Shown here: positions 7,833 to 29,569 of the stretch, one piece after another
Numbering within the stretch: position 1 is the first letter of the stretch
How the letters are laid out: each line of letters starts with the position of its first letter
From: Thermodesulfovibrio sp. 3462-1
GTDB taxonomy: Bacteria > Nitrospirota > Thermodesulfovibrionia > Thermodesulfovibrionales > Thermodesulfovibrionaceae
Length of the DNA: 64,000 bases
Direction: 5' to 3'
Assembly (NCBI RefSeq): GCF_040451425.1
Contig: NZ_CP144374.1
Span: 1,280,501-1,344,500 of the forward strand
Position numbers and translations under genes: made by a program
Notes under the pieces: model-generated
Database searches by the model: none
The model's input: only the letters and a program-made list of their open reading frames with translations
What the model was told of the DNA's origin: nothing

Positions 7833-8563
7833 CTTTCCTGCTCTGATGGCCTTATAAGTAGTTCATTTACACTGACATGCTCGGGCTGAGTTACCGCATA
7901 ATAGATTGCCTCTGCAATATCGTGAGCTTTTAATGCTTTCATAGCACCTCTACTTTTTATCCATTCCTCTGGCATGTTTTCACCCCATTCAGTTGCAACA
8001 ACACCTGGTTCTATTACTGTAACACGAATATTGTATTTTATCAACTCCTTACGAATTGATTCAGAAAAACCTATAACTGCCCATTTTGTAGCACAGTAAA
8101 CAGACCATCCCGGAATCCCAACTCTTCCAGCTACAGAAGAAATATTCACAATATGACCACTTCTCCTGGGAATCATCATTTTTACAGCTAAATGAGTACA
8201 GTAAATAAGCCCTGTAAGATTCAGATCAATAACTTCTTTCCATTCTTTTGGTGAGCCATTTTCAATGTAATTAAAAATTCCTCTTCCAGCATTGTTAACT
8301 AAAATATCAAGCCTTTGAAAATAATCTTTCAATACTTTAAAAACTCTTTCAACTTCCTCAGGTTTTGTAAGATCAGCAGGAACATTGATCACATTTACTC
8401 CATAAGTTGTCAGCTTCTCAGTTACATTATTCAATAATTCCTTTGACCTAGCTACTAAAACAAGATTAGCTCCCTCATTAGCAAACTTTTCAGCAGTTGC
8501 CAAGCCAATTCCCTTTGATGCACCAGTTATAAGTGCAACTTGCCCTTTAATGGATTGCATCAT
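7829..8563 (-). CDS. Short-chain dehydrogenase/reductase (classical SDR)
   Basis: This 244-residue Rossmann oxidoreductase has the cofactor motif TGASKGIG at residues 13-20, NNAG near 90, the catalytic Ser in NISSVAG, and YxxxK in YCATK near 155-160. Arg rather than Asp follows the second strand (LVARS), which suggests NADP(H) preference. The substrate cannot be told from sequence. A good Shine-Dalgarno (AAAGGAGG) precedes ATG-ATG. It overlaps the upstream MFS gene by 17 bases and moaC by 4. Confidence 0.92.
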
Positions 8564-10073
8564 GGGTACCTCCTTTCTTTTTATAAGTTGGTCTCCGGAA
8601 AAACATAATTGTTACAAGCATTGAAAGCATTCCAACACTGAGTATCCAGAAGGCTTCATTAAAAGCAATTGCCTGAGCCTGCCTTATGAGTTCTCTATAA
8701 ATTGCTCCTTCAGGTGGCAGTAGCGTTCTTGGCTGAAGATACTCATTCAGTTTTTCCACAGCTATCTGATAGGGAATGTCATAGGGAGTGAGATTTTCTA
8801 TAAGTCTGAACTGATGAAACTGAGCTCTCTGAGATACAATTGTTGTAACGATTGCTGTTCCAACAGATCCTCCAATGTTTCTTATCACTGCACTCAATGG
8901 TGTTGCATCCTGCATTTTTTCTTTTGGAATATAGGCTACTGTCATTACTGCCAGAGGAGTTATAACAAAAGCCATACCCAGGGCAAGAACAGCTCTTGGA
9001 TATACAAAATCCCAAAACCCTGCCTGAAGATTGAATAAACTCATAATATGGGTTGAATATGCACACATTATAATTCCAAAGGCAAGAGGAATTTTTGGAT
9101 TGATTTTATCTGATATTTTACCACTTAGTGGAAAAGCTATAAGCTGGACTATTCCTGCTGGTCCTAAAACCAGTCCTGCCAAGAATGCTGTATATCCCAT
9201 TAAATTTTGAACATAAATTGGCAAAAGAATAATGCTTCCAAAAAGATTTACAAAGGTAAAAAACATCACTAAGTTGCCAAAAAAGAAATTTTTATCTTTA
9301 AAAAGCCTGAAATTAACAACAGGATGCTCTGCTTTCTTAAGCTCCCACCAAATTAACAATACTAAGCTTACAAGACTTATGATTGATAAAATGATAATAA
9401 ATTTTGAGTCAAACCAATCTTCTCTTTCACCTTTATCAAGAACTATCTGAAGACATCCAATGCCGAGAGCTAAAAATATAATTCCAGGATAATCAATACG
9501 AAGCTTTTCTCTCTTTAAATATGGAGGATCCTCTATCACAAGATATGTCATCAGAATGGATACAATACCAACTGGAATGTTTATGTAATATATCCACCTC
9601 CATGAAAAATTATCAGCAATCCATCCACCTGCTATTGGACCAAGAATTGGTGCCATAATTATACCCATTCCATAAATTGCCATTGCTGTGCCGTATTTTT
9701 CTTTTGGAAAAATCTCAAGAAGTATGCTCTGACTCAGAGGCTGTAGTCCTCCTCCACCAATTCCTTGAAGAACTCTAAAAAATATAAGAGATGTAAGACT
9801 CCACGATATTCCACATAAAAAGGAAGAAATTGTAAAAAGAGCTATTGAAAAAATAAGATAATTCTTTCTTCCAAAAATCCTGCTTAACCATCCAGCCATT
9901 GGAATAACTATTGCATTTGATACAAGATAGGAAGTGATTATCCATGTTGATTCATCAACGCCTGCTGAGAGGCTTCCCTGAATGTGTCTCAATGCAACAT
10001 TATTTATAGTAGTGTCAAGAATTTCAATAAAAGTTGGCAGCATTACTGTGAGAACTATCCAGAACCGTTTCAT
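8547..10073 (-). CDS. Drug efflux MFS transporter, DHA2 (EmrB/QacA) family
   Basis: This 508-residue protein has about 14 hydrophobic segments, the size and topology of DHA2 proton/drug antiporters. Markers are the N-terminal FIEILDTTINNVALRHI, GWLSRIFGRKN (motif A region), RVLQGIGGGGLQPLSQ and GPIAGGWIADNFSWRWIYYINIP (motif C and family signature). No membrane-fusion partner (EmrA) is next to it. A leaderless-type promoter precedes it (TATAAT 10080-10085, 6 bases from the ATG). Confidence 0.94.
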   Translation of the reverse strand: MKRFWIVLTVMLPTFIEILDTTINNVALRHIQGSLSAGVDESTWIITSYLVSNAIVIPMAGWLSRIFGRKNYLIFSIALFTISSFLCGISWSLTSLIFFRVLQGIGGGGLQPLSQSILLEIFPKEKYGTAMAIYGMGIIMAPILGPIAGGWIADNFSWRWIYYINIPVGIVSILMTYLVIEDPPYLKREKLRIDYPGIIFLALGIGCLQIVLDKGEREDWFDSKFIIILSIISLVSLVLLIWWELKKAEHPVVNFRLFKDKNFFFGNLVMFFTFVNLFGSIILLPIYVQNLMGYTAFLAGLVLGPAGIVQLIAFPLSGKISDKINPKIPLAFGIIMCAYSTHIMSLFNLQAGFWDFVYPRAVLALGMAFVITPLAVMTVAYIPKEKMQDATPLSAVIRNIGGSVGTAIVTTIVSQRAQFHQFRLIENLTPYDIPYQIAVEKLNEYLQPRTLLPPEGAIYRELIRQAQAIAFNEAFWILSVGMLSMLVTIMFFRRPTYKKKGGTHDAIH

Positions 10074-10695: not shown

Positions 10696-11421
10696 ATGAA
10701 TAAAAAGCAAAAAGGATATCAGGATCATATTGTAAGTGAGCATAAAGTATTTGAAAGCTTTCTTAAAAGCAAAATAAAATTCAACAGAATTCAAAAGTTT
10801 TATCAGGGAATAAAAGTCAGAATTATCAATCTGAACCTGATTCCTAATATTAAATCTGCAAAGAAAATTTTAGATATCGGATGTGGTGAGGCAGAAACCT
10901 TAAAATTTATAAGACAACATATTAACTCTGATGCTGAGTTTTACGGTGTGGATTTAGAAAAAAACAAGAATCTACCTCCTTTTGTTAACTTTTATGAAGT
11001 TGATATAGAAGAACAAAAACTTCCCTTTGAAGATGATTATTTTGATATAGTTATTTCTACATTTTTATTAGAACATTTACAAAATCCACAACAATTTTTC
11101 TTTGAAACTAATAGAGTTTTAAAAAAGGCAGGTCATTTCTACTGTGTTACTGAAAATTACACTTCAGTTTTTTTACCAGGTAGATTCAATTTTTTCTCTG
11201 ATCCAACCCATGTAAGACCCTGGACAAAAAAAAGTCTAAAAGCTCTTGCTGAGATGTCAGGGTTTAAAGTATTAAAAATTGGTCACTTTAGACCTGTAGA
11301 GTATTTTCTTCTTATTCCATTTGTGCCTATTCTAAGCCTGATTTTTGGTTCAGAATGCTTCATAGTGATTTATGAAGTATTTTTTGGAAAAAGTATTTAT
11401 TGTCTTCTGAGGAAACCTTGA
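10696..11421 (+). CDS. Class I SAM-dependent methyltransferase
   Basis: This 241-residue protein has the class I fold: motif I ILDIGCGEAE at about residues 58-67, an acidic end to the second strand (FYGVDLE), the post-motif LPFEDDYFDIVISTFLLEHL, and RVLKKAGHFYCVTEN. The C-terminus (YFLLIPFVPILSLIFG) is hydrophobic and may touch the membrane. The ATG at 10696 is chosen over an upstream TTG because the promoter lies between them. The next genes are a polysaccharide flippase and a glycosyltransferase, so a surface glycan or lipid-carrier substrate is plausible but inferred. Confidence 0.87.
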   Translation: MNKKQKGYQDHIVSEHKVFESFLKSKIKFNRIQKFYQGIKVRIINLNLIPNIKSAKKILDIGCGEAETLKFIRQHINSDAEFYGVDLEKNKNLPPFVNFYEVDIEEQKLPFEDDYFDIVISTFLLEHLQNPQQFFFETNRVLKKAGHFYCVTENYTSVFLPGRFNFFSDPTHVRPWTKKSLKALAEMSGFKVLKIGHFRPVEYFLLIPFVPILSLIFGSECFIVIYEVFFGKSIYCLLRKP

Positions 11422-11448
11422 AAGTTAAAAATTCATTATTAATTATGT

Positions 11449-12621
11449 ATGTTTAAAGATATATCTTCTGTCACGCTTGCCTTTGTTTATGTGAATATTC
11501 TTGGATATGTTTTTCATTCTGCTGTAAGCCGAAGTCTTGGTCCAGCTGTTTATGGAGAGTTTATGGTTTTGTATTCTTTTATGTTAACAGTGGGAAATAT
11601 TACAGTGCTTCTTGGAACTGTAAGCATCAAAACTATAATTGAAAACTATCAAAGTAGATTTAACTTTTTTAATTCATTAAGATTAATGGGATTTGTAATT
11701 GGTGCAGTATTTGCTCTTTTAGTGTGTGCTTTCTCATCTTATCTTAAGGATTTTCTACATGTAACTGAATACTACTACTTCTTTATAATTGCTTTAGCAT
11801 GGCTTGGAATGTCTTTAGTTGCTGTGGAAAGAAGCTTTCTTCAGGCAACTGGTAAATTCCCTCTCTTTGCCTTCTCTACAGCAATGGAGCTAACACTTAG
11901 ATTAATTGCAGCATTAGTAGCAATTTATGTAGGGTTAAAAGTGGATGGAGTCCTTTTTTCTACAGTTGTTGGAGCATTTGCTGTATTAATAATTCTTCTT
12001 ATAATAAATGGAAATCTTACAGTCAAAAGAGCACAATTAAATATAAAGAAAATGTTAATCATAGCTCTTTATGCTTCTCCTATTGGTTTTTTTATCTATG
12101 CAGATAACATATTTATAAAAAGAATACTTGATGAGCATACTGCAGGAATTTACTCAGCAGTATCAATTGTTGGAAAAGTGCTTGTATGGTTTATTTTAAC
12201 AACTCTTGGCGTTTATTTCCCGAAATTTGTAGAAGCAAAAAAATCAGCATTTTTTAAAAAACTGGTATTTCATATGTTAGCAATAGTAATTGTCTCTGAA
12301 GTAATGGCTCAAATAGCCTGCCTTTTAATTGGTAAACCCTTATTTTTACTGCTTTTTGGAACGAAGTTTGAACCAGCTTTAAAATTCCTTCCCATTTATT
12401 TTATTGCTTTACTACCTCTTCTTTTCAACATAGTTTTTATCAGTATGGCAGTAGCCTTAGAGCGATATTTTTACATGATTTATGCGCATCTTTTTCTATT
12501 TTATGCAGGATTTCTTATGTTTCCCTTGAGAAGCATTTCTGATTATTTAGCTTACATTTTTTGCATAAATGCCTTTTTTGTTTTATTATATTTATTGAGA
12601 TTTAAAAAGGAGTTAAAATGA
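11449..12621 (+). CDS. Polysaccharide flippase-like membrane protein (MOP superfamily)
   Basis: This 390-residue protein has many hydrophobic segments and the N-terminal pattern of Wzx/MurJ-type MOP exporters: YVNILGYVFHSAVSRSLGPAVYGEF, with the typical LGP.xYG. Charged residues are few in the helices. It probably flips an undecaprenyl-linked sugar or other lipid-linked glycan across the inner membrane. It overlaps the downstream glycosyltransferase by 4 bases, so the two are co-translated. It is a little shorter than most Wzx proteins (about 410-480 residues). Confidence 0.82.
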   Translation: MFKDISSVTLAFVYVNILGYVFHSAVSRSLGPAVYGEFMVLYSFMLTVGNITVLLGTVSIKTIIENYQSRFNFFNSLRLMGFVIGAVFALLVCAFSSYLKDFLHVTEYYYFFIIALAWLGMSLVAVERSFLQATGKFPLFAFSTAMELTLRLIAALVAIYVGLKVDGVLFSTVVGAFAVLIILLIINGNLTVKRAQLNIKKMLIIALYASPIGFFIYADNIFIKRILDEHTAGIYSAVSIVGKVLVWFILTTLGVYFPKFVEAKKSAFFKKLVFHMLAIVIVSEVMAQIACLLIGKPLFLLLFGTKFEPALKFLPIYFIALLPLLFNIVFISMAVALERYFYMIYAHLFLFYAGFLMFPLRSISDYLAYIFCINAFFVLLYLLRFKKELK

Positions 12622-22156: not shown

Positions 22157-22711
22157 ATGAAAAAAAATCTTGCAGATATTATTGACAATTTGTCCCGCAC
22201 AAAAAGCACAGGATTGTTAACTATAAATTTTTCTTCTGAAAAGAATCTATTAAAGTTTTATTTAAAAGATGGAGAGATTTATCACATATCTTTCGGATTC
22301 AAAAAAGGATTGCAATGCCTGGATGATTTAGCTTCAAGACAACCTGTTTCATGCAGTTTTATTCCTCAGATTTCACTTGATATGACAAGCGATGATATCC
22401 CTTCCACTGAAAAATTAATAAAACAGTTAAAGGAGATGAACAAATTTATAGATTCTCAAGACTCAACATCTCTTTCTTCAGATTTTGCAAAAATAAAAGA
22501 TGGCATAAAAACTGCATTAATCAGGCAAATTGGACCAATTGGAGGAAAAATTACAGAAAAATATATAAGTGAAAGATGGGTTCCTTCCAACCCCCCATCA
22601 AAAGAGGATTTTCTCAATTTGATTGATATGTTAAAAGAAGAGATAGAAGATCCCCAATCAAGAAGAGAATTTTTGCAAGAGGTCAATAAATTATTGGAGG
22701 TTTATAAATGA
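22157..22711 (+). CDS. DUF4388/PATAN-like accessory protein of the chemosensory operon
   Basis: The 184-residue protein has an N-terminal DUF4388 (PATAN-like) domain at about 1-70: LADIIDNLSRTKSTGLLTIN, LLKFYLKDGEIYHISFG. A C-terminal helical domain (about 112-184) contains ALIRQIGPIGGKITEKYI and LNLIDMLKEEIEDP, a pattern seen in small two-domain partners of such systems. PATAN domains occur in response regulators of cyanobacterial phototaxis and differentiation, where they act by protein contacts. It heads the operon and overlaps the next gene by 4 bases. Its partner may be the REC-DUF4388 protein at 23850. Confidence 0.75.
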   Translation: MKKNLADIIDNLSRTKSTGLLTINFSSEKNLLKFYLKDGEIYHISFGFKKGLQCLDDLASRQPVSCSFIPQISLDMTSDDIPSTEKLIKQLKEMNKFIDSQDSTSLSSDFAKIKDGIKTALIRQIGPIGGKITEKYISERWVPSNPPSKEDFLNLIDMLKEEIEDPQSRREFLQEVNKLLEVYK

Positions 22712-23838
22712 AAATAGAACTTGGATTAAGAGCAGGAATAGCTTTACCTCTTTTAGCAACTTTAATTATAGGAATGGCTGCTTTAGTTGTTTTCAATTAT
22801 ATCACACAGGTAAATCTTTTAAAGGAAGAAGAAAACCGAAACATTGAGGTATCAATCAATACAGCTCAAATTTTACTTGAAGCATCAACGATTCATTATC
22901 AACAAATGGCTCACTTAGTGGCACAAATGTCAGATGTTCAGGAGGCTGTTAATAAAAAAGACAGAAACCGCTTGATAGATAAATTCCTGCCTGCTTTTAA
23001 TTCTTTAAAAGAAAACTTTGCTCTTGCTCAATTTCACTTTCATATACTTCCTGCGGTTTCTCTTGTAAGGCTTCATGACCTTAGTCATTTTGGTGATGAT
23101 ATCTCAAAGGAGCGTAAAACTGTAGTGCAAGTACAAACAACCCATAAAGGTGTAAGAGGTATTGAAATAGGTATTGGTGGAGTAGGATTAAGAGGTGTTG
23201 AACCAATTTTTTACAGAGGGGAGCTCGTGGGAAGTGTGGATGTTGGTGGTGGGTTAAAACTAATAATTGACCAAATTAAAAAAGCTATAAATACTGATTT
23301 AGGTGTTGTTATTTATAAAGATTTACTATCTGGTTGGCCTGGCTTAAAAGATATAAAACATACTTTTGGACAATGGGTTTCGCTTTATTTTACCCAGCAG
23401 AATCCAAAAATGTTTATATCTGAAGCTTCTTTAAAAAACGCTGCTCAATCAAAACAGAGATACTATACTGAAGTAGTGCCTCAGGCAGGGAAAGAGTATA
23501 TTGTTGCTTATAGCCCTCTTAAGGATTTTTCTGGTCGAACTATAGGTTTTATATATATTGTAAAAGAAAGAATTCTCAATCCTGTTAAAGTTTTTACAAT
23601 TCTTGGCATAAATGTGCTTGTTTATATTATAATGCTTATCATAATAGCTCTTTTAATTGGCTATGGTATGAATAAATATGTAATAAATCCTATAGTTGAA
23701 CTTACAAAAATTACAGATGAAATATCAATGGGTAAAACATCTCAAAAAGTAGAGATCAAAGATGCTCGTGGAGAAATAGCTACACTGGCAAGGGCTGTGG
23801 AAAGAATGCGTATAACCATGAAAAAACTTCTTGAATAA
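22708..23838 (+). CDS. Membrane sensor: periplasmic Cache + HAMP, with no output domain
   Basis: This 376-residue protein has TM1 at about 10-31, a large periplasmic region to about 295 that looks like a dCache_3-type sensor (FHFHILPAVSLVRLHDLSHFGDD, GLRGVEPIFYRGELVGSV), TM2 at about 297-320, and a HAMP domain (NPIVELTKITDEISMGKT ... ARAVERMRITMKKLLE). It ends right after HAMP. No methyl-accepting, kinase or cyclase domain follows, and the stop is followed by a clean Shine-Dalgarno for the next gene. It may signal through HAMP contacts with the MCP at 28145, which lacks a periplasmic sensor; that is inference. Confidence 0.85.
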   Translation: MKIELGLRAGIALPLLATLIIGMAALVVFNYITQVNLLKEEENRNIEVSINTAQILLEASTIHYQQMAHLVAQMSDVQEAVNKKDRNRLIDKFLPAFNSLKENFALAQFHFHILPAVSLVRLHDLSHFGDDISKERKTVVQVQTTHKGVRGIEIGIGGVGLRGVEPIFYRGELVGSVDVGGGLKLIIDQIKKAINTDLGVVIYKDLLSGWPGLKDIKHTFGQWVSLYFTQQNPKMFISEASLKNAAQSKQRYYTEVVPQAGKEYIVAYSPLKDFSGRTIGFIYIVKERILNPVKVFTILGINVLVYIIMLIIIALLIGYGMNKYVINPIVELTKITDEISMGKTSQKVEIKDARGEIATLARAVERMRITMKKLLE

Positions 23839-23849
23839 GGAGTAAAAAA

Positions 23850-25061
23850 ATGGCAGGGGAAAAAATATTAGTAATGGATGATAGCCCACTTGTAAGAAAG
23901 CTTGCAGAGGTTTCTTTACAAGAAGCAGGATATGAAGTCTATACAGCAAGTGATGGAGAAGAAGGACTGAAAATTGCAGAACAAATTAAACCTGATTTAA
24001 TTTTAGTTGACTTTATAATGCCCAAAATGACAGGCTCGCAGGTTTGCAAACTCATAAGGGAGAATGAAACTCTTAAAGATATTCCCATTATTCTAATCAC
24101 TGGAAAAGGTGAGACAGTAGGACAGGCATTGATTGAAAAATATGGAATTCTGGATTATTTTATAAAACCTTTTAAATCAGAAGAACTGGTAGAAAAAATC
24201 AATCAAGTGTTGAGTAAAGCACCGGAAGTTAAAAAAATTCCAGAAGAAATCCCTGTTTTTACTTATGAATCACCGGAAACAGAAATAAAGGAAGTGGAAG
24301 AAATAGAGCCTATTGTATTACCTGAAACAGAAGAAGAAGTATTCTCAGTTGAAGAAAAGGGAATTGAATTAACAAAAGAAATTGAATTAAAGGAAAAAAT
24401 ATTTGAAGAGCCAGAACCAATGCAAAAAACCCAGGATTTATTTGAAACACCAGAAATTGAACTCCCAGAAATGGAACTGCTGGGAAAAGAAGAAAGCTTT
24501 GGAACACAAGAAATTGAATCTATCCAGGACATATTGGAAGAGCCTCCAAAAACAGAAATTGAAGAAATTAAGCCTGCTTTTGATTTAACCATTCTGGAAA
24601 AATTAATAGACAACAAATTTAATAGCTTTTATGAAAAAATTATCCCCTTACTTGACAGCTCTGTTGAAGGAGTATTAAAAAAATACGGTTTGATAAAAGA
24701 TTCTTCTGTGATTCTCTCTGGCAATTTAAATTTCTTTAAAGTTCAGGAAATTTTTACTCTAATTAATTCTAATAGTTTAAATGGTATCTTTTATGCTTAC
24801 AGTAATGCAATAGCATACGAATTTTTATTTATTAGTGGAAAAATCATCTATGGAATCTCAAACCTTCAGAAACAAAAAATTGGTGCTAAACTATTAAATG
24901 AAATGGACCAGGAAGAAATTAAGGATATTACCATTGAAGCATTGAATTCTTTAAAGAATCTTCAAAATGGAAATTTTATTTTTGAAAAGAAAGATTTTTC
25001 AGATAGCTGGTTGCTGAATAAAACAGGCTATAATCCATTAGAGCTTGTTAAAGAAACATGA
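23850..25061 (+). CDS. Response regulator with C-terminal DUF4388/PATAN output domain
   Basis: This 403-residue protein has an N-terminal receiver (1-118): acidic pair at 10-11, phospho-acceptor Asp54 in LVDFIMPKM, Lys in YFIKPF. A long Glu/Ile/Pro-rich linker (about 120-255) is low-complexity and probably disordered. The C-terminal DUF4388 domain (about 282-403) contains LSGNLNFFKVQEIFTLINSNSLNGIFYA and AYEFLFISGKIIYG. The order REC then DUF4388 is reversed compared with cyanobacterial PatA regulators. It is probably a non-DNA-binding output protein of the local CheA. Spacing to its neighbours is 11 and 31 bases. Confidence 0.85.
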   Translation: MAGEKILVMDDSPLVRKLAEVSLQEAGYEVYTASDGEEGLKIAEQIKPDLILVDFIMPKMTGSQVCKLIRENETLKDIPIILITGKGETVGQALIEKYGILDYFIKPFKSEELVEKINQVLSKAPEVKKIPEEIPVFTYESPETEIKEVEEIEPIVLPETEEEVFSVEEKGIELTKEIELKEKIFEEPEPMQKTQDLFETPEIELPEMELLGKEESFGTQEIESIQDILEEPPKTEIEEIKPAFDLTILEKLIDNKFNSFYEKIIPLLDSSVEGVLKKYGLIKDSSVILSGNLNFFKVQEIFTLINSNSLNGIFYAYSNAIAYEFLFISGKIIYGISNLQKQKIGAKLLNEMDQEEIKDITIEALNSLKNLQNGNFIFEKKDFSDSWLLNKTGYNPLELVKET

Positions 25062-25092
25062 AAATGATATAATGTAAAGTTAAGGGAAGTTT

Positions 25093-25458
25093 ATGACTAA
25101 AGTTCTTGTTGCAGAAGATTCAGTTACAGATGCAAAATATATTGAGTCCATTCTTAAAGAAGGTGGATACGAGCTTTTTTTTGCAAAAGATGGTGAAGAA
25201 GCTGAAGAATTGATAAAAAAAGAAACTTTTGATCTTGTTATTTTAGATGTGGTTATGCCTAAAAAAAATGGCTTTCAAATTTGTAGAGAGATAAAGAAAA
25301 ATGAAAAAACTAAAGATATACCTGTAATTCTTGTAACTTCTAAAAAAGAAGAAGCTGATAAATTCTGGGGCAAGACGCAAGGAGCAGATGAATACATTAC
25401 AAAACCTTTTGAACCAATTGATCTTTTGGTGGCTATAAAGAAATGTCTGAAGAAATAA
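25093..25458 (+). CDS. Single-domain response regulator (CheY/PilH-like)
   Basis: This 121-residue receiver has the acidic pair near residues 8-9, phospho-acceptor Asp52 in VILDVVMPKKNG, Thr/Ser in LVTSKKEEADKFW and the conserved Lys in YITKPFEP. The DKFWGKTQGADEYITKPF wording is characteristic of PilH/CheY-like regulators of type IV pilus pathways. An internal promoter is possible (TATAAT 25065-25070), followed by a normal Shine-Dalgarno (AAGGGA). It overlaps cheW by 16 bases. Confidence 0.9.
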   Translation: MTKVLVAEDSVTDAKYIESILKEGGYELFFAKDGEEAEELIKKETFDLVILDVVMPKKNGFQICREIKKNEKTKDIPVILVTSKKEEADKFWGKTQGADEYITKPFEPIDLLVAIKKCLKK

Positions 25459-25892
25459 AAGAAAAAACAGAAAAATCCTATTGTGTCTTAGGCGTAGGAG
25501 AAAGAGAGTTTCTTGTCCCAAAAGAAAGCGTTGTTCAGGTTTTGGATATTACGCGAATATTCCCCATTCCAGGAGCTCCTGATTACATTGTTGGAGCTTT
25601 ACCTGTAAGAGGCAAAATCATTCCTGCTGTGGACCTGGCAAAGATTTACAATATTGAAAGATTAAACTATTCTGATAATAAATTGCTGGTTATTGAAGTA
25701 AAAGGTGAAAAAATAGGAATTTTATCGGATATTTCGCCCTTTTTTGTTAGTTTTGAATCCGATATAGTTGTTGAAGATTTTATTGATCCTGAAAAATTAT
25801 TTGAACAACTTAAAGTGAGTTATCAAAAACCCGCTGAAAATCTAAAGAGTGGTTTTGCTGGTGAAACCAGCACAGGAAAACAGGAAAAATGA
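25443..25892 (+). CDS. cheW: CheW-like coupling protein
   Basis: This 149-residue CheW-domain protein has the typical strands: YCVLGVGEREFLVPKESVVQVLDI, FPIPGAPDYIVGALPVRGKIIPAVDLAKIY, VIEVKGEKIGILSDIS. It links the receptor to the CheA kinase. The C-terminal 25 residues are extended and polar. It lies directly between the CheY-like regulator and CheA, as in Pil-Chp-type operons. Confidence 0.92.
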   Translation: MSEEIKEKTEKSYCVLGVGEREFLVPKESVVQVLDITRIFPIPGAPDYIVGALPVRGKIIPAVDLAKIYNIERLNYSDNKLLVIEVKGEKIGILSDISPFFVSFESDIVVEDFIDPEKLFEQLKVSYQKPAENLKSGFAGETSTGKQEK

Positions 25893-25907
25893 CAAAACTC
25901 AGAAAAG

Positions 25908-28148
25908 ATGATAGACAAATCTGAGCTTATAAAATATTTTTTATTGGAAGCAGAAGAACATGTAAATACCTTAATTGAAGGCACAGAGGAGCTTGAAACT
26001 AAAGGATACAACAAAGAAACAATAGAAAGCCTTTTCAGAGCAACACACACTTTAAAAGGTTCTGCCTCAATCGTTAAATTCAATAAAGTTGCTACACTAT
26101 CCCATCGCCTTGAAGACCTTTTTGAAGCTCTTTTGAATGAAGAAATAAACTATGAAAATTCTCTTATTTATCCCATTAAACAAGTTATTAATGCAATAGT
26201 GGGATTTGTAAATGAAATACACAAGACAGGTGAGGAAAAAAGCGAGCTTGATGAGAAAGTTATAAAATCAATTGAAAATATTCTACATAAAAAACAAGCA
26301 TTTGTTGAAGAATACGAACCTGTAGCTTTTAAAACCTTTCCTGTTAGCAACACTGTCAGAGTTGAGCTTGAAGTAATTGACCATATTCTCACTTCTCTGG
26401 GAGAAACTCTTGTTCAGAAAAATACGATAATGGACAAAGAAAAAGAACTATTAAACATTGTAGAAGAAATACACAACAGTGGAAAAAAACTTCTAAAAGA
26501 AATAACTGATTTTTCAAACAGATACTACTTATCTACGCAAAATAAAGATGAAAAAGTTATAGACAGTTTTTTTGTGGAGTTCAGTGATCTTGAATTTGAC
26601 CGTTATGATGAATACCATATTTTTTTAAGAAAAATTCAGGAGATAACAAATGATATAACAGAGGGTATAAATTCATTGTTTACTTTTTCTGAAAATCTTT
26701 CATATCATTTCAAATCACTCAACAAAGAAATCAATTATTTAAAAGACAGCCTGGTTGAAATAAGAATGATCCCAATTAGCAGGCTTTTACACAGGCTTTC
26801 TGAAGCTGTTAAAGATACAGCAAAAGCTCATGGAAAAATTATTGAAATAGAGATTAAAGGAGCAGAAACAAAAATTGACAAGCCAATTTTTGACTCCCTG
26901 TATGAGCCAATTCTTCATATTCTTCGCAATGCTGTACAACATGGAATTGAGTATCCTGAAGAAAGAATAAGAAAAGGAAAAGACCAGACAGGTCACATAC
27001 AAATTAATTTACAAAAAGAAGGGAGATATATTGTAATAAGTATCAAAGACGATGGTAAAGGGATTGATATTGATAAAGTTAAACAAATAGCTATTCAGAA
27101 AAAATTTATCGCGCCTGAATATGCTCCCTTTGTTTCAAAAGAAGAAATTCTATCTTACATATTTGCTCCTGGCTTTTCCACTGCAGAAGAGGTAGATTTC
27201 CAGAGTGGAAGAGGCATAGGACTTAATATTGTTAAGACAGCCATCTCAAAACTTAAAGGAACAATAGAAGTCTCTTCAAAGCTTGATAAAGAAACGACTT
27301 TTGTAATAAAAATTCCGCAGTCATTAACTATAAGCAATCTTTTAGTATTCAATTCCCATAATCTGGATTTTGCCATACCTATTAACTATATTGAAGAAAT
27401 TTTAACACTGGAGGATTTTCCGCAGGCAATAATAGAAAGAAAAATTAATCATAAAAATAGAATTATTCCTTTGAAAGTATTTTCAGAAGTTTTCTTCTCT
27501 GTCAACGGTAAAAAAATTGAAAAAGGGTTTATAATTGTTTTTAATTTTTCAGGAATAAGAAAGGGACTTATTGTTGAAGAAATTCTGGGACACGAGGAAG
27601 CGACAGTTCATAGTTTTGGAAAATTTCTTGAAGGATTAACTCAATATCTTGGTTATTTTATATGTGGCAAAGGCTCTCCAAGATATGTAATTGATCCATT
27701 AAAACTATTTGAAGAAGAATTTATATTTACAACTACATTGTCTGAGAAAATTAAAGAACCTTTTACGTACAAAGGTTCTGTCCTGATTGTGGATGACTCT
27801 ATAAGTGTAAGAAAGAGCTTACAAAGTATTCTTGAAGATAAAAAACTGAAAGTATATACTGCAAAAGATGGCGCTGAAGCATTAAATTTGATAGAAAAGG
27901 AAAAAATTGACCTTGTAGTAACTGACCTTGAAATGCCTATAATGCATGGCTATGAACTCATCAGCAGAGTAAGAAAAGATCCAAGATTCAAAGATTTACC
28001 AATTATAGTTCTTACTTCAAGAGGGACAAAAAAACATGAAGAAAAAGCCATTGCACTTGGAGCAGATGGCTATATTGTAAAGCCCTTTGACGAAAAAGCC
28101 ATACAGGAACAAATTCTTAATCGCCTTATTTATTCAGAATTGCGTTAA
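25908..28148 (+). CDS. cheA: Hybrid CheA kinase with C-terminal receiver
   Basis: This 746-residue histidine kinase is ordered as follows. The HPt domain is at 1-100, with phospho-acceptor His47 in [12 protein letters not shown] helical linker covers about 120-290. The kinase core has [13 protein letters not shown] (the VRMVPF-like PilL/ChpA signature), N-box [18 protein letters not shown], and G-boxes DDGKGID and [10 protein letters not shown] CheW-like domain is at about 480-620. The receiver is at 628-746 with Asp in [12 protein letters not shown] and Lys in YIVKPFD. A separate P2 domain is not obvious. The receiver may act as a phosphate sink. No cheB or cheR is in the window, so adaptation may be absent or encoded elsewhere. 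Confidence 0.93.
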
Positions 28149-29569
28149 ATTCTAAATTTTTCAGTTACATTAACGAATTCTTTTGAAGTATCTGATAGAG
28201 AACGGGATATATCAATAAGCTCATGGCTTATTTCATAAATATTTTCAGTCACTTCTTTCACTTTTTGAGCTGAACTTACCTGCTTATCGGTTATTTCTTT
28301 TTGTTTCATAGTATATTCATTAATGTCATCTATAACTTGTCCTATTCTTTTTATGATTGAATCAATCTTTTCAAATATTTCTGTTGTTTGATTTACCATA
28401 TTTGTTCCTATCTCAACATAGTTTGTTTCTTCTTCAAGATTTTTTGTAACAGCCGTTGCCTCTTCCTGAATTGCTGTAATAATTTCTGCAATATTCTTAG
28501 ATGACTTAGCTGTTTTTTCAGATAAAGTTCTTATTTCTTCAGCAATAACGACAAATCCTTTACCCTCCTCACCTGCTCTTGCTGCTTCAATTGAAGCATT
28601 AAGTGCGAGAAGATTTGTTCTATTTGCAATATCACTGATTATTGTTGAAATTGTTCCTATCTCCATTAATTTTTCTGAAAAAAGTTTCATTCTTCTATTT
28701 ATTCCCTGAACAGCTGTTCTGATTAATTGCATGCTGCTAATTGTCTCTGTAACAATTTCATTACCCTTCAGGATTGCATCAATGGCTTCTTTTGAAACAT
28801 CTGTTGCAGCAGAGGTTTTATCTTTTGTTTGTAAAGCAATTTCTGAAGCATCTTCAATAAGGGATACTATTTTTTCAATCTCCTGTTTTTGTATTTCTGC
28901 GCCTGTTTGTAATTTTTGAATTATTTCATTGAGAATATTGCTTTTCTGTCCTACATCCTCTGCTGTATTTTTAACTTCTCTGACAAGCTCACTCAATCCA
29001 TCTGTCATGAGATTGAAGGCATCTGCCAGAGAACCAAAAACATCTGGTGTGACTTCTGCTTTCTGCGTGAGGTCTCCTTCAGCTGCCTGAGTCATTATCT
29101 GTAGAAACTTTATAATATTGTTCTGCATCTCTTTTCTCTGTTCTTCTGTCTGAATGAGTGTAGAAAGTTTATCCATCATTTGATTAAAAGCATCTGCAAT
29201 TGTTTCAAATTCATCACCTGTTTTCAACTTTATTCTTTTTTCAAAATTTCCTTTTCTTATAGCTTCTACTACATCTTCAATTATTGAAAGTGGAGATATA
29301 ATCTGTTTTCTAAACCATAAAACATTGGCTGTTGATATCCCTATCAATGCTAAAACAAATATTGCAATAACAGGAGCAAATTTTAAAAGAGTATTTATAA
29401 TTCCCATTTTTTTCATAATAAATTCTTCGCCATAAATTTCATATCCAGTAATAATGAGTCCAGCAATAAGAATAATGGTTGAAAGAACAATGGATAGATT
29501 AAATACAATAAGGAATTTTCTATAAAGACCTTTTGGTTTTTTAATTTTTGATTTAACTACCTCAGGCAT
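28145..29569 (-). CDS. Methyl-accepting chemotaxis protein without a periplasmic sensor domain
   Basis: This 474-residue receptor has two membrane helices (about 20-45 and 60-84) with only a short loop between them, a HAMP ([15 protein letters not shown]...), a second HAMP-like unit near 150-210 ([15 protein letters not shown]), and a full MCP signalling hairpin. The tip is [38 protein letters not shown]. It is convergent with and overlaps cheA by 4 bases. With no ligand domain it resembles PilJ-like layouts, and could take its input from the sensor at 22708. A Shine-Dalgarno (AGGAGG) precedes the ATG. Confidence 0.92.

Follow-up and report, generated by a model that had tools for sequence, protein, structure and literature searches.

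A HAMP-ended sensor and a PATAN-STAC protein as a putative two-protein receptor in a type IV pilus chemosensory operon of Thermodesulfovibrio

Here we describe a chemosensory operon within a 64,000-nucleotide stretch (hereafter the window) of the 1.82-Mb genome of Thermodesulfovibrio sp. 3462-1, in which a membrane sensor that stops directly after its HAMP domain (22708-23838, plus strand) is encoded together with a protein that joins a PATAN-like to a STAC-like domain (22157-22711, plus strand). We consider it probable that the two form a receptor divided over two proteins, with the PATAN-STAC protein acting as adaptor, in an operon of the type IV pilus chemosensory class. As judged from sequence, the pairing of the two is well supported by gene conservation, and we infer physical contact between the products, the direction of signalling and PilB as the target. 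A preliminary description of this region had read the sensor as one half of a split receptor, completed by a methyl-accepting chemotaxis protein (MCP) encoded next to cheA, and had passed over 22157-22711, the gene that travels with HAMP-ended sensors.

Results

The sensor comprises 376 amino acids and consists of a first transmembrane (TM) helix, a dCache_3 domain (E 1.6e-26, residues 41-287), a second TM helix and a HAMP domain at residues ~322-375 (28.2 bits for residues 322-368), with nothing beyond it. In the AlphaFold model, the TM1 helix is followed by two Cache units, TM2 is continuous with HAMP AS1 up to residue 340, and AS2 occupies residues 356-375 of 376. Domain search and model agree with what had been claimed of this protein, namely that it is a Cache/TM/HAMP protein that ends straight after HAMP, and as such it has the make-up of an AF1503-like receptor: an extracytoplasmic sensor, TM helices, and HAMP as the sole cytosolic part. 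The end point (‘..RITMKKLLE’) is identical in all 16 sampled Thermodesulfovibrio genomes, across which HAMP plus tail share a mean pairwise identity of about 74%, and four further HAMP-ended homologues of 35-40% identity occur outside the genus, all of them in Nitrospirota genomes. This common end, in the genus and in more distant relatives, rules out a local truncation of the gene. Neither is the sensor a broken MCP: its relatives with MCP output are single-chain dCache–HAMP–MCPs of only 22-32% identity, and therefore share the domain but belong to a separate lineage. As a conserved receptor without an output domain, the sensor depends on a partner, and in this respect the split-receptor interpretation stands; its choice of the MCP as that partner fails outside the genus. 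In five of the 16 species (L071, L072, L074, L075 and L076) the membrane-distal Cache unit is deleted, giving proteins of 274-276 instead of 376 amino acids that retain the TM helices, the proximal Cache unit and the HAMP end.

The start codon of the sensor overlaps the stop codon of the upstream gene by 4 bp (22157-22711 versus 22708-23838). The 184-residue product of this gene is predicted to be a divergent PATAN/DUF4388 domain (residues ~1-100) joined to a STAC-like four-helix domain (residues ~105-184). DUF4388/PATAN is matched at E<=0.01 by 15 of the 24 family members, and hhalign aligns the PATAN half with the REC-PATAN regulators of the operon at 65% (P 6e-5, 45 columns). For the C-terminal half, helices are predicted at residues 108-125 (h1), 128-139 (h2), 149-160 (h3) and 166-181 (h4), with a 9-residue linker, and an IGPIG motif is located at residues 125-129, between h1 and h2. 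AF1502 is a STAC protein translationally coupled to AF1503, an archaeal receptor whose cytosolic portion is HAMP alone, and its crystal structure shows two hairpins of helices with a nine-residue connection and an LGPx(x)A turn separating h1 from h2 (PMC4834066); helix layout, motif place and linker of our protein, as far as prediction alone goes, agree with this published layout. Across the 24 members the [IV]GP[IV][GA] turn retains its G and P in every case (24/24), with I, V, A or M at the first position and, at position five, G in 20/24 and A in 3, where AF1502 itself has IGPIA and the published STAC motif is LGPx(x)A. Furthermore, AF1502 is the best of 177,635 PDB sequences for the partner profile (E 0.01, the next match of the STAC-half profile being at 0.43), and its segment aligns with the profile at 77% in hhalign.

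Within the genus, the PATAN-STAC gene lies immediately upstream of the sensor at 15 of the 16 loci, and it accompanies all of the outside-genus sensors found by sensor sequence alone. The two genes are adjacent in G174:C57, G170, G203/L113, G135:C33 and Desulfogranum (L119), and lie in the same cluster in G057. At L113 a CheY is the sole chemosensory component accompanying them, CheA, CheW and MCP being absent there, and the Desulfogranum PATAN-STAC gene stands beside a dCache_1/HAMP protein that was detected only via its HAMP end. We then searched from the side of the partner, using the PATAN-STAC profile on 246 Nitrospirota genomes, and read 20 further full-length loci, at 18 of which PATAN-STAC directly adjoins a TM protein with HAMP at its end. 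The sensor domain of these neighbours is mostly Tll0287/sCache_heme with CxxCH (PF11845, E 1.5e-35 and 5e-33 in the two tested). Eight of the 18 pairs are located inside che operons of the window type, one occurs with CheY only, and the other nine stand away from any che gene. The coupling to a small STAC protein that marks AF1503-like receptors is thus present here as well (a 4-bp overlap, 15/16 loci in the genus, 18/20 outside), provided that the STAC assignment holds. At the remaining locus within the genus (L070 of genome G008, 11035-11700) the PATAN-STAC gene is absent, and the place directly before the sensor gene is taken by a thiamine-phosphate-synthase-like gene.

A profile of the heme-type sensors returned 17 HAMP-ended matches (E<=6e-119, open reading frames of 293-337 amino acids) and then no match until 4.8e-80, from where on the matches carry output domains; the gap indicates that heme-type HAMP-ended sensors are a discrete set. 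Thirteen of these 17 had been used to build the profile, and of the four independent ones, three lie beside PATAN-STAC (G030, G061:C84 and G135:C8, the last with a frameshifted copy), the fourth (G109:C124) does not. On the Desulfobacterota side, pairs were found at L119 and at L189, the latter with a small c-type cytochrome gene. Since the PATAN-STAC profile reaches E<=1e-12 in only 3 of 394 genomes of the phylum of Desulfogranum, the module appears to be mainly a Nitrospirota one at this sensitivity.

It is the STAC half that is linked to the HAMP-ended neighbour. PATAN proteins of ~105-160 amino acids that lack STAC, obtained in the same search, have such a neighbour at 0 of 14 loci, several of which come from genomes that also hold a STAC-bearing pair, and the sole STAC-bearing protein in this control batch (L202) does adjoin a HAMP-ended sensor, a membrane protein of 447 amino acids. 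Taken together, 19/21 STAC-bearing versus 0/14 STAC-less proteins have a HAMP-ended neighbour (Fisher p 5e-8, uncorrected for relatedness; p 1e-7 when L204, a PATAN fragment, is left out), where it should be noted that several control loci are cut by contig ends, so that some neighbours on one side are unseen. The pair at L202 (G027:C109, 1002-6790) lies among REC, PATAN, roadblock-like and small GTPase genes, which suggests a link of this cluster to polarity GTPases.

The two proteins are also inherited together. Trees of PATAN-STAC and of the TM2-HAMP region split alike by sensor type, dCache versus heme (support 100/99 and 98/96), and the distances of the partners correlate with r 0.68, a value reached in 0 of 5000 permutations. 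The Thermodesulfovibrio pair has the che-operon position of heme-type pairs elsewhere, yet groups with dCache pairs outside such operons, and genome G174 holds one pair of each type. Sensor and PATAN-STAC thus behave like one unit whose movement is not bound to that of the che genes.

The MCP (28145-29569, minus strand, 474 amino acids) has the architecture that had been described for it: two TM helices starting near residues 21 and 60, which leave a periplasmic loop of only ~20 residues, two HAMP stretches (the best at residues 85-136) and a normal signalling hairpin (MCPsignal, 125 bits). Having a TM hairpin, HAMP and a signalling domain with no periplasmic sensor, it resembles CetA. Its gene adjoins cheA, as had been stated, with a 4-bp overlap, but it is convergent with it, downstream of a formate–tetrahydrofolate ligase gene, and therefore lies outside the operon. 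In nine other genomes an MCP of 42-46% identity to that of the window is found in the same convergent position after cheA, and these nine and the window MCP form one clade (100/100), apart from other sampled MCPs. All nine have a periplasmic domain (TM helices near 14 and near 161-226), and seven of the nine che operons also contain a HAMP-ended sensor, from which we conclude that sensor and MCP are not complementary halves in general. The short periplasmic loop is, in the sequences sampled, a Thermodesulfovibrio feature; loss of the sensor domain from the MCP of this genus would be the parsimonious reading, although sister groups in a tree are no proof of polarity. The expected co-occurrence of HAMP-ended sensor and short-loop MCP was therefore found in the genus (16/16) but not outside it, where HAMP-ended sensors occur without an adjoining MCP, and where, with the che operon shared, the MCPs in the equivalent position all (9 of 9) possess a periplasmic domain. 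Within the loop (window 29380-29440, residues ~43-63), a Y-x-IYGEEFI-x-K-x-xGI motif is conserved in most of the genus and may be a contact or sensing site.

Two genomes of one genus, G131 (L157/L171) and G158 (L159/L173), have a che operon and PATAN-STAC and no HAMP-ended sensor. Here the MCP in the usual position carries a Tll0287-like heme domain, as seen directly in G131 and through a near-identical relative sequence in G158, which hints that a heme signal can feed one pathway by either route, HAMP-ended sensor or MCP. The heme domains of the HAMP-ended sensor and of the MCP are only 25-40% identical, which led us to reject a recent fusion or fission linking the two proteins.

The six plus-strand genes from 22157 to 28148 form a tight operon, with intergenic gaps of -4, 11, 31, -16 and 15 bp, and the order of genes at this locus is preserved in all 16 Thermodesulfovibrio genomes. 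Downstream of the pair, it encodes a response regulator of REC-linker-PATAN/DUF4388 architecture, PixG/PilG-like in role (23850-25061; REC 90 bits, DUF4388 27.6 bits and above the cut-off), and, as identified by domain search, a single-domain CheY that is PilH/PixH-like in role (25093-25458), CheW (25443-25892) and a hybrid CheA with Hpt, HATPase, CheW and C-terminal REC domains (25908-28148). The features of the type IV pilus chemosensory class are all present: a REC-bearing hybrid CheA, CheW, two regulators including a PATAN regulator, and pilus motors in the genome, the last being PilB/GspE-like and PilT-like ATPases assigned at family level, at which PilB/PilT and secretion ATPases are not separated. 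In one species of the genus (L069 of G007, 7930-10069), CheA lacks the receiver at its C terminus and no gene for a separate CheY is present, which leaves that species with a simplified phosphorelay.

Discussion

How would such a receptor work? The double-Cache sensor would read a periplasmic signal and end in a HAMP dimer, and the STAC-like four-helix half of the protein from the overlapping upstream gene would dock on the receptor and read HAMP. In the case of CbrA, STAC packs beneath the membrane domain, whose motions it has been proposed to transmit to the kinase (PMC13022988). From the PATAN half the signal would go on, in the likeliest case, to the machinery of the type IV pilus, because PATAN regulators bind the extension motor PilB in Synechocystis (PMC10519157, PMC7690835) and PilB/GspE-like and PilT-like ATPases are encoded in the genome. 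This PATAN-STAC route would run parallel to one that leads from MCP and CheA to the REC-PATAN regulator. Among related MCPs, which in other genera have a sensor of their own, the short-loop protein would be a derived form, and in Thermodesulfovibrio the HAMP-ended sensor would be the only recognisable periplasmic sensor left at the locus. We only tentatively extend this to a more specific scheme, which we regard as somewhat more apt to fail than to hold, in which STAC-PATAN regulates the type IV pilus motor directly and bypasses CheA, with interchangeable sensor domains (dCache_3, dCache_1, heme-Cache) and a co-evolving interface between HAMP and PATAN-STAC.

Several observations weigh against a receptor made of sensor and PATAN-STAC protein. 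The window protein scores 22 bits against PF14332 (DUF4388, E 1.8e-4), which is below the Pfam cut-off of 25 bits. A fold search of the PATAN-STAC model in the PDB gave no significant match, and a second structural comparison returned Z-scores of up to 6.7 to helical bundles, with 5a1q not listed, an outcome that counts neither for nor against the STAC assignment. The match to AF1502 is weak when taken alone; we carry the STAC assignment despite this E-value, because the best of all PDB sequences searched is precisely the partner of the prototype HAMP-ended receptor. Furthermore, G008 retains the sensor, the che genes and the short-loop MCP with no PATAN-STAC at the locus, a HAMP-ended sensor at L181 also lacks PATAN-STAC, and G131 and G158 keep PATAN-STAC without the sensor. 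The surveyed genomes are related, so their counts are not independent, and PilB binding is known for cyanobacterial PATAN regulators, which are other than this family. Finally, of 13 genomes tested that contain an isolated or additional pair, 12 also hold a related CheA, and isolated pairs could therefore still act on the chemosensory pathway.

It is thus possible that the sensor affects the MCP–CheA array, directly or through an adaptor, since a related CheA is usually present elsewhere in the genome when a pair is isolated, and the alternation in G131 and G158 ties the sensor domain to the MCP. In the adaptor version, PATAN-STAC would couple the sensor to MCP-CheW-CheA instead of the pilus motor, making the sensor a second input to CheA; the location of the pair inside the che operon in many genera, the related CheA elsewhere in isolated-pair genomes, and the retention of PATAN-STAC in G131 and G158, in which the sensor is found on the MCP alone, would fit this. 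We nevertheless think it unlikely, as 10 of the 18 surveyed pairs are away from che operons, the STAC-bearing pair at L202 is found in a roadblock/small-GTPase cluster instead, and PATAN domains are known as binders of pilus motors and not as components of arrays (PMC10519157).

The split receptor, a heterocomplex in which the HAMP-ended sensor would drive the short-loop MCP through HAMP-HAMP contacts and PATAN-STAC would be accessory, appears quite improbable. That HAMP-ended sensors are found with PATAN-STAC and no adjoining MCP, that in seven che operons they accompany an MCP with its own periplasmic domain, that G174:C23 has the sensor and a che operon yet no MCP beside cheA, and that the heme domain borne by an MCP is no recent fusion, all speak against it, notwithstanding the joint presence of sensor and MCP at one locus throughout the genus, the window MCP having no such periplasmic domain as its relatives possess, the same sensor-domain family residing on the MCP in the sensor-less che operons of G131 and G158, and the retention in G008 of sensor and MCP and not of PATAN-STAC. 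That the sensor gene encodes a degenerate or truncated receptor, retained by chance and without function in signalling, we hold to be very improbable: the protein has no recognisable output, and the membrane-distal Cache unit has been lost in five of 16 species, but the uniform end point, the conservation of HAMP plus tail, a separate set of heme-type HAMP-ended proteins, and a conserved partner are hard to reconcile with it.

The closest parallel to the proposed receptor of sensor and PATAN-STAC protein is AF1503/AF1502 of Archaeoglobus fulgidus, likewise an output-less, HAMP-ended receptor, whose small, translationally coupled partner has four helices and a GP motif at the turn from h1 to h2, as predicted here (PMC4834066). 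AF1502, however, is a stand-alone STAC of 68 residues, whereas here a STAC-like half is fused to a PATAN-like one, and the gene order is receptor then STAC, whereas PATAN-STAC precedes the sensor here. Moreover, AF1503-type receptors have been described as an archaeal family linked to transporters, in contrast to the bacterial, pilus-type chemosensory operons of this study. A receptor spread over two proteins is also known from CetA/CetB of Campylobacter, with CetBA pairs in Magnetospirillum (PMC2628428, PMC12442639), where the MCP CetA, like that of the window, combines a TM hairpin with HAMP and lacks a periplasmic sensor (PMC2628428). CetB, however, is a PAS protein located in the cytoplasm and believed to act on that MCP, whereas our sensor is a periplasmic Cache protein with a HAMP of its own, and its conserved partner is not the MCP. 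The Pix/Tax and Pil-Chp type IV pilus systems have, as here, a hybrid CheA, CheW, an MCP and a pair of response regulators, one of them with PATAN (PMC10519157); PATAN is N-terminal in PixG, the reverse of the REC-PATAN order found here, and it is the HAMP-ended sensor and the PATAN-STAC gene, heading the operon, that are extra.

HAMP-ended receptors with a STAC partner are already known from archaea. In the literature searched we found no description of a PATAN–HAMP or PATAN–STAC pair, and as far as this literature shows, what is new is a set of such receptors in bacteria, the fusion of STAC to PATAN, and their link with chemosensory operons of the pilus type. How AF1503-like receptors deliver their signal is an open question, and here the STAC partner carries its own candidate output domain. 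With the pair in an operon of a known kind of readout, pilus control, both the HAMP surface that is read by STAC and the action of PATAN become testable. The locus also provides a caution, in that a sensorless MCP adjoining a HAMP-ended sensor need not be its partner.

The domain that most HAMP-ended relatives in other Nitrospirota carry is that of the sCache_heme (DUF3365/Tll0287) sensors, which bind NO and include a TM-HAMP protein of Pseudomonas azotoformans, and the parts of that report available to us describe no PATAN or STAC partner for them (PMC12889525). The window sensor, as a dCache_3 protein, falls outside this family. At three loci the gene directly after the HAMP-ended sensor encodes a small c-type cytochrome or a hemerythrin (L189, 6633-6947; L181, 4676-5032; L105, 4743-5219), pointing to redox or gas signals for those sensors.

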